Source of the DNA: Sphingomonas sp.
Lineage (GTDB): Bacteria; Pseudomonadota; Alphaproteobacteria; Sphingomonadales; Sphingomonadaceae
Length of the DNA: 42,574 nt
Assembly (NCBI GenBank): GCA_025980335.1
Contig: JAICXO010000006.1
Span: forward strand, 1 to 42,574
Direction: 5' to 3'
Positions within the stretch are counted from its first letter, which is position 1. Each line of letters opens with the position of its first letter. Below the pieces are notes generated by a model. That model made no database searches. It had not been told where the DNA came from and saw only the letters and a program-made list of their open reading frames with translations. Made by a program: the position numbers and the translations under genes. Of the stretch, positions 9,397 to 37,977 are shown piece after piece.

Positions 9397-9400
9397 TTCC

Positions 9401-9472
9401 GTCATTGCGAGCGTAGCGAAGCAATCCAGCCGCAGCTCTGGATTGCCGCGCACCTTCGGTGCTCGCAATGAC
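9401..9472. repeat. Palindromic repeat family B, copy 2
   Basis: Arms GTCATTGCGAGC (9401-9412) and GCTCGCAATGAC (9461-9472) are perfect 12-base complements, with inner arms GCAATCCAG and CTGGATTGC. It begins five bases after the astD stop codon and ends 45 bases before the L,D-transpeptidase start, so it may act as a transcript-end hairpin for astD. Confidence 0.85.
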
Positions 9473-9517
9473 GAGTCACCTTGCACCCGTTTCGCTGAAC
9501 CCGGCGTTCAGCTTCCC

Positions 9518-13288: not shown

Positions 13289-13319
13289 TCGATCGCGAGC
13301 GCACCGCCGCGGTCCATTT

Positions 13320-13409
13320 TTCACACGAAGCCACGAAGAAGAAAAATAAGGCGCGAAGAAACGTCGGTTTGTCTTCGTGGCTTCCTTCTTCTTCGTGCCT
13401 TCGTGTGAA
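13320..13409. repeat. Palindromic repeat family C, copy 1
   Basis: Inverted repeat with perfect 11-base outer arms TTCACACGAAG (13320-13330) and CTTCGTGTGAA (13399-13409), plus partly complementary GAAG/CTTC-rich inner arms. It is AT-richer than its surroundings. It fills the gap between dcd and kynU. A second copy is at 18166-18252. Confidence 0.85.
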
Positions 13410-18110: not shown

Positions 18111-18125
18111 CAGAACCCCCATAAC

Positions 18126-18154
18126 GTCATTGCGAGCGAAGCGAAGCAATCCAG
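18126..18154. repeat. Palindromic repeat family B, half copy
   Basis: Only the left half of the family B element is present: GTCATTGCGAG followed by CGAAGCGAAGCAATCCAG. The expected right arm is missing, and a family C element begins 12 bases later. It appears truncated, perhaps by the neighbouring element. Confidence 0.75.
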
Positions 18155-18165
18155 AACGGGATTGG

Positions 18166-18252
18166 TTCACACGAAGGCACGAAGGTCACGAAGAGCACGA
18201 TGAAGATTGCGTCCTCTTGGTGGCCTTCGTGTCCTTCGTGTCTTCGTGTGAA
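18166..18252. repeat. Palindromic repeat family C, copy 2
   Basis: Outer arms TTCACACGAAG and CTTCGTGTGAA are identical to the copy at 13320-13409, with inner CACGAAGG / CCTTCGTG tracts. The centre differs from copy 1. It lies between rnr and the ybiI-like gene, whose stop codon begins at 18259, five bases beyond the repeat. Confidence 0.85.
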
Positions 18253-18256
18253 AACA

Positions 18257-18520
18257 TTACCGCAGCTGGCTATCCTTGCTCCCACGCCGATTGATCGTGG
18301 AATGCACCACCGCCTTGTCGCGCTCCGACTGGCACGCGACACAGGTACGCACCCCCGCAACCGCATCGCGCCGCTTTTTCGGAATGGGCTCTCCGCAATC
18401 GTCGCATTCCTCGGCGCTCTCGCCTTTCGGCGTCAGCGCACGCGCGCGGAGCACCGCGTCTTTCACCGTATCGTCGATCTGGTCCTGAACCGCGCCATCG
18501 CGCGTCCATCCGCCGGCCAT
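18257..18520 (-). CDS. ybiI: DksA/TraR family C4 zinc-finger protein, YbiI-like
   Basis: Protein of 87 residues, essentially the length of E. coli YbiI (88). It begins MAGGWTRDGAVQDQIDDTV, carries a four-cysteine zinc finger (Cys39, Cys42, Cys60, Cys63; CDDCGEPIPKKRR then VRTCVACQ), and ends NRRGSKDSQLR, the characteristic YbiI tail. It lacks the long coiled coil that DksA inserts into the RNA polymerase secondary channel, so DksA-like regulation cannot be assumed. It lies 34 bases downstream of the M28 peptidase on the same strand and may be co-transcribed with it. Confidence 0.9.
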   Translation of the reverse strand: MAGGWTRDGAVQDQIDDTVKDAVLRARALTPKGESAEECDDCGEPIPKKRRDAVAGVRTCVACQSERDKAVVHSTINRRGSKDSQLR

Positions 18521-24153: not shown

Positions 24154-24273
24154 GTCCTTCGATACGCCATTTCGACCGGCTCAATGGCTACTCAGGATGA
24201 GCGGCTTGTGGGCGCGCCTTCCCCGCTCATCCTGAGTAGGGGCTGAGCTTGCCGAAGACCCGTATCGAAGGAC
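24154..24273. repeat. Palindromic repeat family A, copy 2 (permuted arm order)
   Basis: Made of the same two half-units as the copy at 501-620 but in swapped order. The outer arms are GTCCTTCGATACG (24154-24166) and CGTATCGAAGGAC (24261-24273). The inner arms are CTACTCAGGATGAGCG (24188-24203) and CGCTCATCCTGAGTAG (24224-24239). It sits inside the valine operon between the acyl-CoA dehydrogenase and the hydrolase, starting six bases after the former's stop codon. Confidence 0.85.
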
Positions 24274-34874: not shown

Positions 34875-35761
34875 TGGCGACCCGCGGCGACGATGGCGGG
34901 TCGGCGCTGTGGCGCGGCATGCGGCACCTGCTGTTCGGCGAGGAGGCCGAGCCGACGCTTCGCGCGGAGATCGAGGAAGCGATCGACGAAGCCGAGGGAA
35001 GCGAAGGGGGCACGCCGGCAGCCGGCGACCTCGGCGCCGCCGAGCGGCAGATGCTGCGCAACCTGCTTCACTTCGGCGAGCAGACGGCGGGCGACATCTG
35101 CGTGACCCGCGGCGACATCGTCGCGGTCCCGAGCGACATCAGCTTCGACGACCTTGTCCGCGCCTTCGTCGAGGCGGGGCACAGCCGCCTGCCGGTTTAT
35201 GGCGAGAGCCTCGACGACGTGATCGGCATGGTTCACATCAAGGACGTGTTCGTCGCCAGCGTCGAACCGGGACGCGATCGATCACTCGCGGCGCTGATGC
35301 GTGAGCCCCTGTTCGTCCCGGAATCGATGGGCGTGATCGAGCTGCTCGCGCGCATGCGAACCGAGCGCGTCCATCTCGCGATCGTTGTCGACGAGTTCGG
35401 CGGCACCGAAGGTCTCGTCACCATCGAGGACGTGGTCGAGGAGATCGTCGGTGACATCGAGGACGAGCACGACGACGCCGAGGCAGCGATGCTGACGTTG
35501 CTCGACGACGGCCTGTGGGAAGCCGACGCGCGGATCGAACTCGAGGAACTCGCCGACGCCGTCGACACCCGCCTGTCCTCGGAAGAGGATGAGGTCGACA
35601 CGCTCGGCGGCCTGATGTTCCTGCTCGCCGGTCACATTCCGCCGAAGGGCGAATGCGTGACCCACCCTTCCGGCTGGAAGCTCGAGGCAATCGACTCCGA
35701 CCCCCGGCGCATCATCCGAGTGCGCCTGCATGCGCCCGAGGCGGAGGCAAGGACTGAATAA
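34874..35761 (+). CDS. corC: CBS-domain hemolysin/CorC family protein
   Basis: Cytoplasmic protein of 295 residues with paired CBS domains (about 70-190: TRGDIVAVPSDISFDDLVRA, GMVHIKDVF, then LLARMRTERVHLAIVVDEFG) and a C-terminal CorC_HlyC domain (LGGLMFLLAGHIPPKGECV). It lacks the N-terminal DUF21 membrane domain of larger relatives, like E. coli CorC/YbeX. It is linked to Mg/Co efflux or to ribosome-related functions; the latter fits its position after ybeY. A family A repeat and an antisense VOC gene now separate it from lnt, which normally follows directly. Confidence 0.92.
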   Translation: MATRGDDGGSALWRGMRHLLFGEEAEPTLRAEIEEAIDEAEGSEGGTPAAGDLGAAERQMLRNLLHFGEQTAGDICVTRGDIVAVPSDISFDDLVRAFVEAGHSRLPVYGESLDDVIGMVHIKDVFVASVEPGRDRSLAALMREPLFVPESMGVIELLARMRTERVHLAIVVDEFGGTEGLVTIEDVVEEIVGDIEDEHDDAEAAMLTLLDDGLWEADARIELEELADAVDTRLSSEEDEVDTLGGLMFLLAGHIPPKGECVTHPSGWKLEAIDSDPRRIIRVRLHAPEAEARTE

Positions 35762-35768
35762 TTGCTCC

Positions 35769-35880
35769 CGCTCATGCTGAGTAGCGGCTGAGCGAAGCCG
35801 AAGACGCGTATCGAAGCACGTCCTTCGATACGCGCCCTCGACAGACCTTCGGTCTGCTCAGCCGCTACTCAGGATGAGCG
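35769..35880. repeat. Palindromic repeat family A, copy 3
   Basis: Outer arms CGCTCATGCTGAGTAG (35769-35784) and CTACTCAGGATGAGCG (35865-35880) pair with one mismatch, extended inward by CGGCTGAG / CTCAGCCG. The inner CGTATCGAAGCAC / GTCCTTCGATACG arms match copy 1 with one change. Between the inner and right arms an extra CAGACCTTCGGTCTG palindrome is present. It starts eight bases after the corC stop codon. Confidence 0.85.
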
Positions 35881-35894
35881 CATTTTTAGGCAAC

Positions 35895-36389
35895 TTACTG
35901 CTTCGCGAACAGCTTGCCGCGATCGGCCATCGCCTTGAACTCCAGCGCGTTGCCGGCGGGATCGTGAAAGAACATCGTCGCCTGCTCGCCTGGCTGGCCT
36001 TCGAAGCGGATTGTCGGCGCGATGACGAATTCGACAGCGGCGTCCTGCAATCGTCCGGCGAGCGCCTTCCATTCGTCCATCGGCAGTACGATCCCGAAAT
36101 GCGGCACCGGTACCTCTTCGCCATCGACGGGATTGGTGTAGCCCGTCCCCTTCAGGGGAGGGGTTGGGCTGCGGGCTTCGGCTTCGACTGCGACAGCTCC
36201 CACCCCACGCACCTCCGCTGAAGGGAAGGGGTGGACCAGGTGCGCGACGATCTGGTGACCGTAGAGATCGAAGTCGACCCATTCGTCCGCGCTGCGTCCC
36301 TCCGGGCAGCCGAGCAGCCCGCCGTAGAAGCGGCGCGCAGCGTTTAGGTCACTGACCGGAAAGGCGAGGTGAAACGGCGGCAGATTCAT
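35895..36389 (-). CDS. VOC (glyoxalase/dioxygenase) family protein with in-frame palindromic insert
   Basis: Vicinal-oxygen-chelate superfamily protein of 164 residues from the ATG at 36389 ([20 protein letters not shown]). Two beta-alpha-beta-beta-beta modules are recognisable: [20 protein letters not shown] at the start and [20 protein letters not shown] later, ending [20 protein letters not shown]. Candidate metal ligands are His7, the His of VPHFG and the Glu of LEFK. Substrate unknown. Between HLVH and NPVDG, where homologues run almost directly on, lie about 30 extra residues ([11 protein letters not shown], then [11 protein letters not shown]) encoded by an imperfect palindrome at about 36141-36230. 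The insert keeps the frame. The gene is antisense within the corC-lnt interval. Confidence 0.85.
36141..36230. repeat. Palindromic element inside the VOC gene (family D)
   Basis: About 90 bases with complementary ends: CCCCTTCAGGGGAGGGGTTG on the left, and CACCTCCGCTGAAGGGAAGG on the right, which in reverse complement reads CCTTCCCTTCAGCGGAGGTG. It is an imperfect hairpin with a CTTCGG-containing centre. It lies wholly within the VOC coding frame and its length is close to a multiple of three. No second copy is in this window. Confidence 0.75.
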
Positions 36390-36465
36390 GAACTCTGCAC
36401 TGCAAAGTCGTAGGTCGATTGTCGAGGCTTTCGTTAGCGTCGCGTAACCGCTAGCCATCGCTGCG

Positions 36466-37977
36466 ATGCTGTACGTCCTGTACGCGCTGATTGCGGGCGC
36501 AGTGTCCGCCTTCGCCTTCGAGCCGGTCGGCTGGTGGCCGCTGTTGCTCGTCGCGATCGCGGTGCTGTGCGAGCTGCTCGACCGCACCAAATCAATCGGA
36601 CGAAGCCTTGCGATCGGCTGGGCATTCGGATTCGGTCAGTTCGCGGTCGGACTCAACTGGATCGCGACCTCGTTCATTTATCAGTCGAACATGCCGCCAT
36701 GGCTCGGCTGGGTCGCCGTCATCATGCTTTCGATCTATCTGGCCGTTTATCCGATGATTGCGGCGGGAGTCGCGTGGCGGCTCGGACGCGACGACCGGGT
36801 CGTGCTGGTGACCGTGCTCGGCGGTGCCTGGGCGATCACCGAATGGCTGCGCGGAACGATGTTCACCGGATTTCCGTGGAACCCGGCCGCAGCGGCGTTG
36901 GCGCCGACGCCGCTGATCGGCGTGACGCCGCTGATCGGCACCTACGGAATGTCCGGCCTTGTCGTGCTCCTCGGCGGCGCGATCTGGCTCGAATATTATC
37001 GCAAGTGGCTGCCGCTGGTCGTGATCCTCGCCGCCGCGGTATTCCTGTGGGTGCTGCCGTCCTCGGCCGTGCCTGCGGACCCGCTGACGATCCGGAACGT
37101 CCGCATCGTCCAGCCGAACATCGGCCAGGAAGAGAAATGGCGGCCGGGATTCGACGAGGAAGCGGCACGCCGCCTCGCGCAATTGTCGGGCCCGGCCGGC
37201 GGCGAGCCACGGCTGCTGCTCTGGCCCGAAGCGGCGATTACCGATCCCGTCGAGGACCAGCGGCTTGCCGGACAGGGAGCCGCAACCTTCCAGCGTCTTC
37301 GTGCAGCGTCGCTGCTCGGGCCCGGCGACCTGCTGCTGACCGGAGGCCTCGCAGTCCGCTCTCCGGACGGCGTGCGCATCGGCGGCGCGACGAACAGCAT
37401 CTTCGTGATCGCGCCGGGCGGACGCATCGTCGGCCGCTACGACAAGGCGCACCTGGTGCCTTACGGCGAATATCTGCCGATGCGCCCGTTGCTCTCGGCG
37501 ATCGGCCTCTCCCGCCTTGCACCGGGCGATTTCGACTTCACGCCGGGACCGGGCCCGAAGACAATCGATCTCGGCGGCGAATGGGGAAAGGTCGGGTTCG
37601 ACCTCTGCTACGAAATCATCTTCTCCGGCCATGTCGTCGACGAGCACGACCGGCCGGAATTCATCTTCAACCCGTCGAACGACGCGTGGTTCGGCGCCTG
37701 GGGCCCGCCGCAGCACCTCGCCCAGGCGCGGCTTCGCGCAGCCGAGGAAGGTCTTCCGGTCCTCCGCGCGACGCCGACCGGCATCAGCGCCGTGATCGAC
37801 GGACGCGGCAATGTCGTGAAGGAACTGCCGTGGCGCACCGCCGGAGCGATCGACGCCGTGCTTCCGCCCGCCGCCAACGCCGCCCCGCTGTTCGCCCGCT
37901 TCGGCAACGCGATCCCGCTGCTGCTAGGCCTGCTGCTCATCGCCGGCGGCATTGTGCTTGGCCGTAAGCGCCGCTAG
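36466..37977 (+). CDS. lnt: Apolipoprotein N-acyltransferase
   Basis: Inner-membrane enzyme of 503 residues that adds the third acyl chain to lipoprotein N-termini. About six N-terminal helices (to about residue 200) precede a periplasmic nitrilase-type domain with the catalytic triad Glu255 (LLWPEAAI), Lys327 ([15 protein letters not shown]) and Cys381 ([13 protein letters not shown]). A last helix lies near 480-498 ([18 protein letters not shown]). Several lipoproteins in this window (transpeptidase, cytochrome c', sugar dehydrogenase) would be substrates. The start at 36466 lies 76 bases from the divergent VOC start. It continues the conserved corC-lnt-metK order. Confidence 0.95.

Follow-up and report, generated by a model that had tools for sequence, protein, structure and literature searches.

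A VOC-family gene of a sphingomonad carries within its reading frame a palindromic element that belongs to a dispersed repeat family, here called family A, and eight further in-frame copies are spread over seven other genes of the same genome. We consider it highly probable that a non-autonomous family A palindrome was inserted into the linker between the two modules of the VOC protein with the frame kept, and that it persists there as a translated, disordered loop which is slowly decaying. The element is confirmed as real, known in kind and unusually rich in in-frame copies. The part that a specialist would not expect is the presence of unlike palindromes in the same protein loops. Palindromes that encode part of a protein are familiar above all from Rickettsia, and REP examples come from other genera. 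Here, a single sphingomonad genome has nine in-frame family A copies, five of them in repair or replication genes, and many species belonging to the same bacterial family have unlike palindrome families at one CarA loop.

A palindrome in the reading frame of a VOC gene

The window, by which we mean the whole stretch of 42,574 nucleotides analyzed, is contig C80. It comes from G000, a metagenome-assembled genome of 2.37 Mb in 151 contigs with a completeness of 83%. A gene of the VOC family (glyoxalase/dioxygenase superfamily) lies at 35895..36389 on the minus strand and encodes 164 residues with an in-frame interruption. The earlier note had placed a palindrome in frame within this gene at 36141..36230, and this was borne out. 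The reading frame, from 36389 to 35895, is free of stops across the whole palindrome, and the covariance model R2, built from 19 units with both window arms left out, finds both arms in inverted orientation. The coordinates were right to about one base, with the 90-nt imperfect palindrome found at 36142..36231 (no strand assigned).

This element consists of a pair of REP-like units in inverted orientation, whose matches are about 19 nt apart. Unit 1, which is 5' in the VOC gene, occupies 36196..36233 on the minus strand and is composed of the hairpin CCCCTTCCCTTCAGCGGAGG and a GGGGTGGG tail (R2 E 3.3e-4). Unit 2, 3' in the gene and in the opposite orientation, is CCCGTCCCCTTCAGGGGAGGGGTTGGGCTG at 36141..36176 on the plus strand (R2 match 36141-36171, E 6.3e-3), and its arm has BLAST matches to places in other genomes, the best with an E of 4.1e-6. 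After the two arms, the next R2 matches in the 42.6-kb window have E-values of 0.95 (the left arm on the other strand) and 0.97. The training units of R2 came from searches started with the window element, and these values are independent of the letters of the arms, not of the search. A first model, R1, had the window arms in its training set, which makes its E-values for the window circular, and R2 was used in its place for them. In general form, the family A unit is composed of the hairpin CCCCTCCC-loop-GGGAGGGG and, after it, the tail GGGGTGGG, and two units in inverted order make up an element of 83-153 nt (16 copies measured).

As a fold alone, the window element is modestly unusual (-50.9 kcal/mol, z -2.2, with 6 of 200 dinucleotide shuffles as good), which is why it was examined as a repeat; membership in a repeat family is the stronger evidence, and the z-value marks the window copy as diverged. 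An Rfam search of 35700-36500 returned no match at E 1. At E 0.01, R2 matched 44 of the 71 genomes of the genus, with 18 unit matches in G000 itself, so that the claim of other genomic copies holds. REPIN-like inverted pairs of units are represented by the R2 pair in the window and, with R1, by several plus/minus pairs elsewhere in the genome. One of 80 VOC loci matched at E 0.1, that of Sphingomonas sp. PsM26, in which an inverted unit pair stands directly past a stop codon. Among the open-access literature matches listed, no paper dealt with family A or with CarA as a landing site.

The VOC protein matches PF00903 with an E of 3.3e-7, and the features of the superfamily, paired beta-alpha-beta-beta-beta modules and conserved residues, were found through this match, the alignment and an AlphaFold model. 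His7, His97 and Glu150, which we take to be the metal ligands, are invariant columns of the VOC alignment and all three are present in the window protein. A FosB identity was considered and dropped, the NCBIfam match lying far below the cut-off. From the alignments, a 33-codon stretch, V52-Y84 (36138..36236, minus strand), follows ...IVAHL and stands in place of a loop of about nine residues in the orthologues, for example APDAVRARA. The addition of about 30 residues proposed earlier thus stood as an in-frame lengthening and fell as a clean addition, with 33 residues replacing about nine for a net gain of 24. The native loop cannot be recognized any more in the alignments, and was replaced or eroded rather than simply split. 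No target-site duplication was visible by eye at the insert, where one would be unreadable because the native loop is gone. In the AlphaFold model, residues 58-77 have a pLDDT below 50 and lie between two confident strands (45-51 and 85-88), which agrees with the suggestion of a surface-loop insert and predicts a disordered linker joining the two modules. Over 140 aligned codons without the insert, dN/dS was 0.087-0.155 in four pairs including the window and 0.088-0.124 in four pairs excluding it, with dS in such pairs around 1 and near saturation; the flanks of the insert are under constraint.

The insert was sought in relatives both inside and outside the genus. A VOC match was obtained in 40 of the 71 genus genomes, and the insert is absent from all 36 other genomes that list both flanks (0-24 nt between the matched pieces), three more that list a single flank being left out of this count. 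It is likewise absent from the 80 public relatives kept out of at least 593, whose titles name several phyla, each of which gave a single match stretch of 399-432 nt; this absence is based on the match spans and on 38 aligned relatives, and a regular expression for the loop matched 39 of the 80. Neither outcome named as refuting in the earlier note was obtained: the residues are missing from every VOC relative seen, and the element has other genomic copies. The absence is not a precise one, as the native loop was not simply split. The best public match, the metagenome-assembled genome Sphingomonas sp. HEB_FP_1_bin.19, has 83% identity to a second version of the VOC locus in G000, on contig C123, and 77% to the window protein, the C123 version having been the first row of the query. 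That second version (locus L004) has the short loop HLAPEEARVRATN and lacks the element, and for this reason the assembly may mix two related populations. With the insert present in one genome only, the VOC gene found no support as an insertion hot spot.

Family A in other genes of the same genome

The best 30 of the 47 R1 unit matches in G000 were merged by eye into 25 elements, nine of which lie inside genes: the VOC gene, leuS, mutL, recF, carA, imuB, the gene of an E2-like acyltransferase, and dnaE2 twice. A composition test called seven of them as in-gene; those in mutL and imuB were missed by it and were counted by orthologue alignment. Of a related element type, TTGTGGGGAGGGTTGGGTGGGGGC, none of seven passed the same test. 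LeuRS, MutL, RecF, CarA and the C-terminal part of DnaE2 exceed their NCBIfam cut-offs; the E2-like protein reaches none. The name imuB is putative, supported by weak polymerase IV matches. RPE family models exist in NCBIfam. At E 0.1, none was shown among the NCBIfam matches of ten proteins, for three of which the best 25 families were seen.

In seven of the nine in-gene copies, the reading frame turns the 5' hairpin into PLPLAGG or a diverged form of it, which in VOC is HPFPSAEV. Other frames are used in mutL (LPYRLREG) and imuB (SPSLQGRG), and the copy at the N-terminal site of dnaE2 is in the opposite orientation. The insert is missing from the relatives aligned for leuS (4 of 4), recF (2 of 2), imuB (4 of 4) and dnaE2 (3 of 4 at the N-site, 2 of 5 at the C-site). 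The leuS of one relative, G066, has a longer loop with no palindrome, and the linkers of MutL and E2 vary in length in all species aligned. Five of the nine in-gene copies are in DNA repair or replication genes (mutL, recF, imuB and dnaE2 twice). The parallel to the Rickettsia elements drawn by the earlier note is strengthened by these eight additional in-frame copies in seven genes.

Two further loci deserve mention. At the start of hemW (L119, contig C117), a tenth family A element forms an edge case, with the apparent gene start just upstream of it; either the repeat encodes an N-terminal extension or the gene starts downstream. In imuB (L096, contig C62), there is a second in-frame insert of a different kind (GPSPLGEGGSS...SRWERDL), absent from three aligned relatives. 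One of these, G055, has a shorter variable stretch at that place, and PSTSLGTGPSTSLGTG at yet another.

Shared loops in CarA and other core proteins

At the same protein places as the G000 inserts, other species have different repeat-like peptides. This is best seen in the linker of CarA, a choice that was not blind since it was surveyed because G000 itself is occupied there. CarA was matched in 61 of the 71 genus genomes, and its linker is 12-15 residues long in 42 of them, 17 in three (with a possible repeat remnant, PLPHAGGEP) and at least 26 in 16. Judged by their letters, the 16 occupied linkers comprise nine of family A and seven of an unlike family B, CCCTCGACTTCGCTCGGGAC. The fold z is -3.3 or lower, against mononucleotide shuffles, in 14 of the 16, the remaining two being G024 (-2.1) and G016 (-0.9). 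Across the order, CarA was matched in 117 of 118 genomes, and a split linker match was obtained in 10 of 52 genomes from other genera of the family versus 0 of 60 from other families. Nine of these ten linkers outside the genus contain palindromes (z -3.6 to -13.5; G098, with z +1.9, has none), which by letters are A in three, B-like in two, D, a relative of B, in three, and E in one. In the carA of G183 (L278, contig C22), the frame differs across a B-related palindrome next to an N, indicating a broken gene or an assembly error.

Pairwise alignment of 24 CarA linkers separates the families, with median z-values of 12.3 for A-A and 11.0 for B-B versus 0.5 for A-B, -0.1 for A-D and 2.4 for B-D; family E, seen in one genome, has no pair at z of 5 or more. 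Family D, CCGTTCGCCCTGAGCCTGTCGAAGGGC, was first set apart from B as a fourth family, and this was abandoned: a z of 5 or more was reached in 5 of the 18 B-D comparisons, so B and D count as one. By comparison of these sequences, the CarA linker is occupied by two families that recur (A, and B with D) and by another that was seen in one genome, which makes three or more that are unlike one another.

How did such a site come to be occupied so often? One account, which we offer only tentatively and would not expect to prove right, is that CarA above all, along with LeuRS, DnaE2 and MutL, provides shared landing sites at which unlike palindromes repeatedly insert in frame and turn over, with some machinery or DNA feature setting the sites. 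If this were true, core enzymes would keep gaining new loops from mobile palindromes, and where these land would depend on more than tolerance, either on an insertion machinery common to them or on a feature of the DNA. The competing account is that occupied CarA alleles were spread by recombination or transfer and palindromes were swapped by conversion, with few true insertions. To this we give a similarly guarded reception, possible yet rather doubtful. G021 and G045 have nearly the same element with empty species between them on the CarA tree, and the glycine before the linker (loci L231-L267) is encoded by GGG in 11 of the 15 occupied alleles listed and in none of the 13 listed empty alleles, a hint that some alleles have a common origin or were transferred. 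However, with three or more unlike families present at the same site, several insertions are needed in any case.

The tree points in the same direction for family B. It was built from 37 CarA proteins without the linker (30 fetched loci and seven picked for long or odd linkers) and is enriched for occupied species. Family B needs seven changes for its seven rows, six of them forced by supported branches, and family A seven changes for nine rows, four of them forced. Over all four states, the tree requires 15 changes or more, compared with a mean of 17.0 for shuffled labels, which were as low in 21 of 200 trials. For part of the pattern seen in CarA, allele transfer from one species to another deserves serious consideration.

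LeuRS was matched in 69 of the 71 genomes and is split in three, by family A in G000, by an unlike palindrome in G084 and by family A in a second copy in G003. With three of 69, the case for LeuRS being a strong hot spot is weak. The best PDB match of LeuRS has an alignment gap at the insert loop, which makes the loop variable in length elsewhere too. At the MutL site, the fold z against shuffles is -11.8 in G055 and -2.8 in G082, with 0.0 in the empty G066. For DnaE2 it is -4.5 in G055 at the N-site, and -8.2 in G066 (family A), -6.3 in G055 and -4.9 in G082 at the C-site. In the few genomes compared, these loops, like that of CarA, contain unlike palindromes in relatives.

Persistence of the insert and relation to known repeats

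Under insertion followed by slow decay, the reading that we prefer for the VOC gene, the steps would be as follows. A non-autonomous family A repeat would insert into the linker between the VOC modules. The repeat is GC-rich, and its composition by itself leaves about half of the six reading frames free of stops. An insertion would survive if it preserved the frame and fell in a surface loop or domain linker that tolerates it; others would be purged, and the repeat would persist as a translated disordered loop and decay slowly. We infer that the element moved to the VOC site as a mobile element, that its peptide is produced and has a neutral effect, and that insertion sites are set by tolerance rather than by target choice. 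In seven intergenic or gene-edge copies, 20 of 42 frames are open, versus 21.5 expected from dinucleotide shuffles. In the nine in-gene copies, where one frame is open by definition, the count is 35 of 54 versus 30.5. Selection of the element for coding was thereby left unsupported, and the open frames do not require it, since intergenic and edge copies are as open as their shuffles.

That the insert has instead been kept for a function, with its peptide or an mRNA hairpin regulating the VOC gene or protein, strikes us as improbable. A stable hairpin is possible in the VOC mRNA, and the five copies in repair and replication genes follow a trend described for intragenic REPs, which favor genes of DNA synthesis and repair (PMC3733652, excerpt). 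However, the VOC insert is found in one genome only and is disordered in the AlphaFold model, the hairpins are read in differing frames from site to site, and the gene bias rests on few loci because dnaE2 and imuB are on one contig. Considerably less likely still is a decaying VOC gene with the insert as its lesion. A conserved loop was lost and the protein became 24 residues longer, but the frame is intact, the conserved residues are present, dN/dS is low (with dS near saturation), and the same element occurs in leuS and carA, which are essential or central genes. An artefact of metagenome assembly, to which the 83% completeness, the 151 contigs and the second VOC version on C123 might point, is the least credible reading of all, given that CarA is occupied in single-contig genomes as well (e.g., G007, G055, G021 and G050) and that nine frame-keeping artefacts are implausible.

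The in-frame copies and the shared CarA loop amount to a natural experiment that shows where core enzymes accept 25-50 foreign residues in their loops, and they offer a means of dating insertions and a lead towards the machinery that moves such repeats. They are also a warning to annotators that these core proteins are partly repeat-derived.

Other repeats are present in the window. A different palindromic repeat of about 110-120 nt, CTCATCCTGAGTAG...TATCGAAGGACGTCCTTCGATACG, has three copies at 500-623, 24154-24273 and 35768-35880, the last of them just downstream of the VOC gene, and TTCACACGAAGCCACGAAG inverted repeats are found at 13306-13409 and 18166-18266. The CGTCATTGCGAGCG...AAGCAATCCAG repeats at 2718-2791, 9400-9473 and 18125-18154 are possibly of the CGTC REP type, likened by its description rather than by consensus (PMC3733652, excerpt).

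Among known systems, the Rickettsia palindromic elements (RPE; Ogata 2000) are palindromes, about 100 nt long, that lie within conserved genes and are translated with them in frame, with intergenic copies too; in PMC2229807 they are described as likely neutral or slightly harmful, and the product of an RPE-bearing gmk as translated and active. Family A resembles them in being in frame in conserved genes (VOC and the eight other copies), and differs in its GC-rich sequence and in a host unrelated to Rickettsia. The same source reports that Correia/NEMIS, ERIC and other bacterial MITEs have terminal inverted repeats and that some are fused in frame into genes; family A shares the inverted repeat ends and the fusion, a likeness of form (PMC2229807, excerpt). 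Like REPINs (PMC3116915, excerpt), a family A element is made of two inverted REP-like units. Unlike REPINs with RAYT transposases, its genome has no Y1 transposase (PF01797) that could be found at 83% completeness; the domain occurs in three of the 71 genomes, R2 gave no match at E 10 around those three loci, and mobilization by RAYT was not supported.

Also close in kind are the intragenic GTAG/CGTC REPs. As excerpts of PMC3733652 describe them, these are short hairpin units, often in inverted dimers, found in dnaE2, recB, a tRNA synthetase and other genes, with S. alaskensis and E. litoralis included, and one recB site is common to different REPs in two Xanthomonas. The idea of a sphingomonad repeat family parallel to RPE is thus supported without being new in kind, as intragenic REPs, sphingomonad cases among them, are already in print (PMC3733652, excerpt). 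Family A likewise has short hairpin units in inverted pairs inside genes. Unlike those REPs, it lacks their tag as a rule: of 30 matches in its own genome, 2 have GTAG or CGTC no more than 6 nt from where the unit starts, one being the GTAG at the left window arm, and the tag was discarded as a mark of the family. A further difference is the presence of unlike families at common sites in CarA, LeuRS, DnaE2 and MutL, in CarA across genera. Family A, then, acts like RPE and the intragenic REPs and is a different sequence family.
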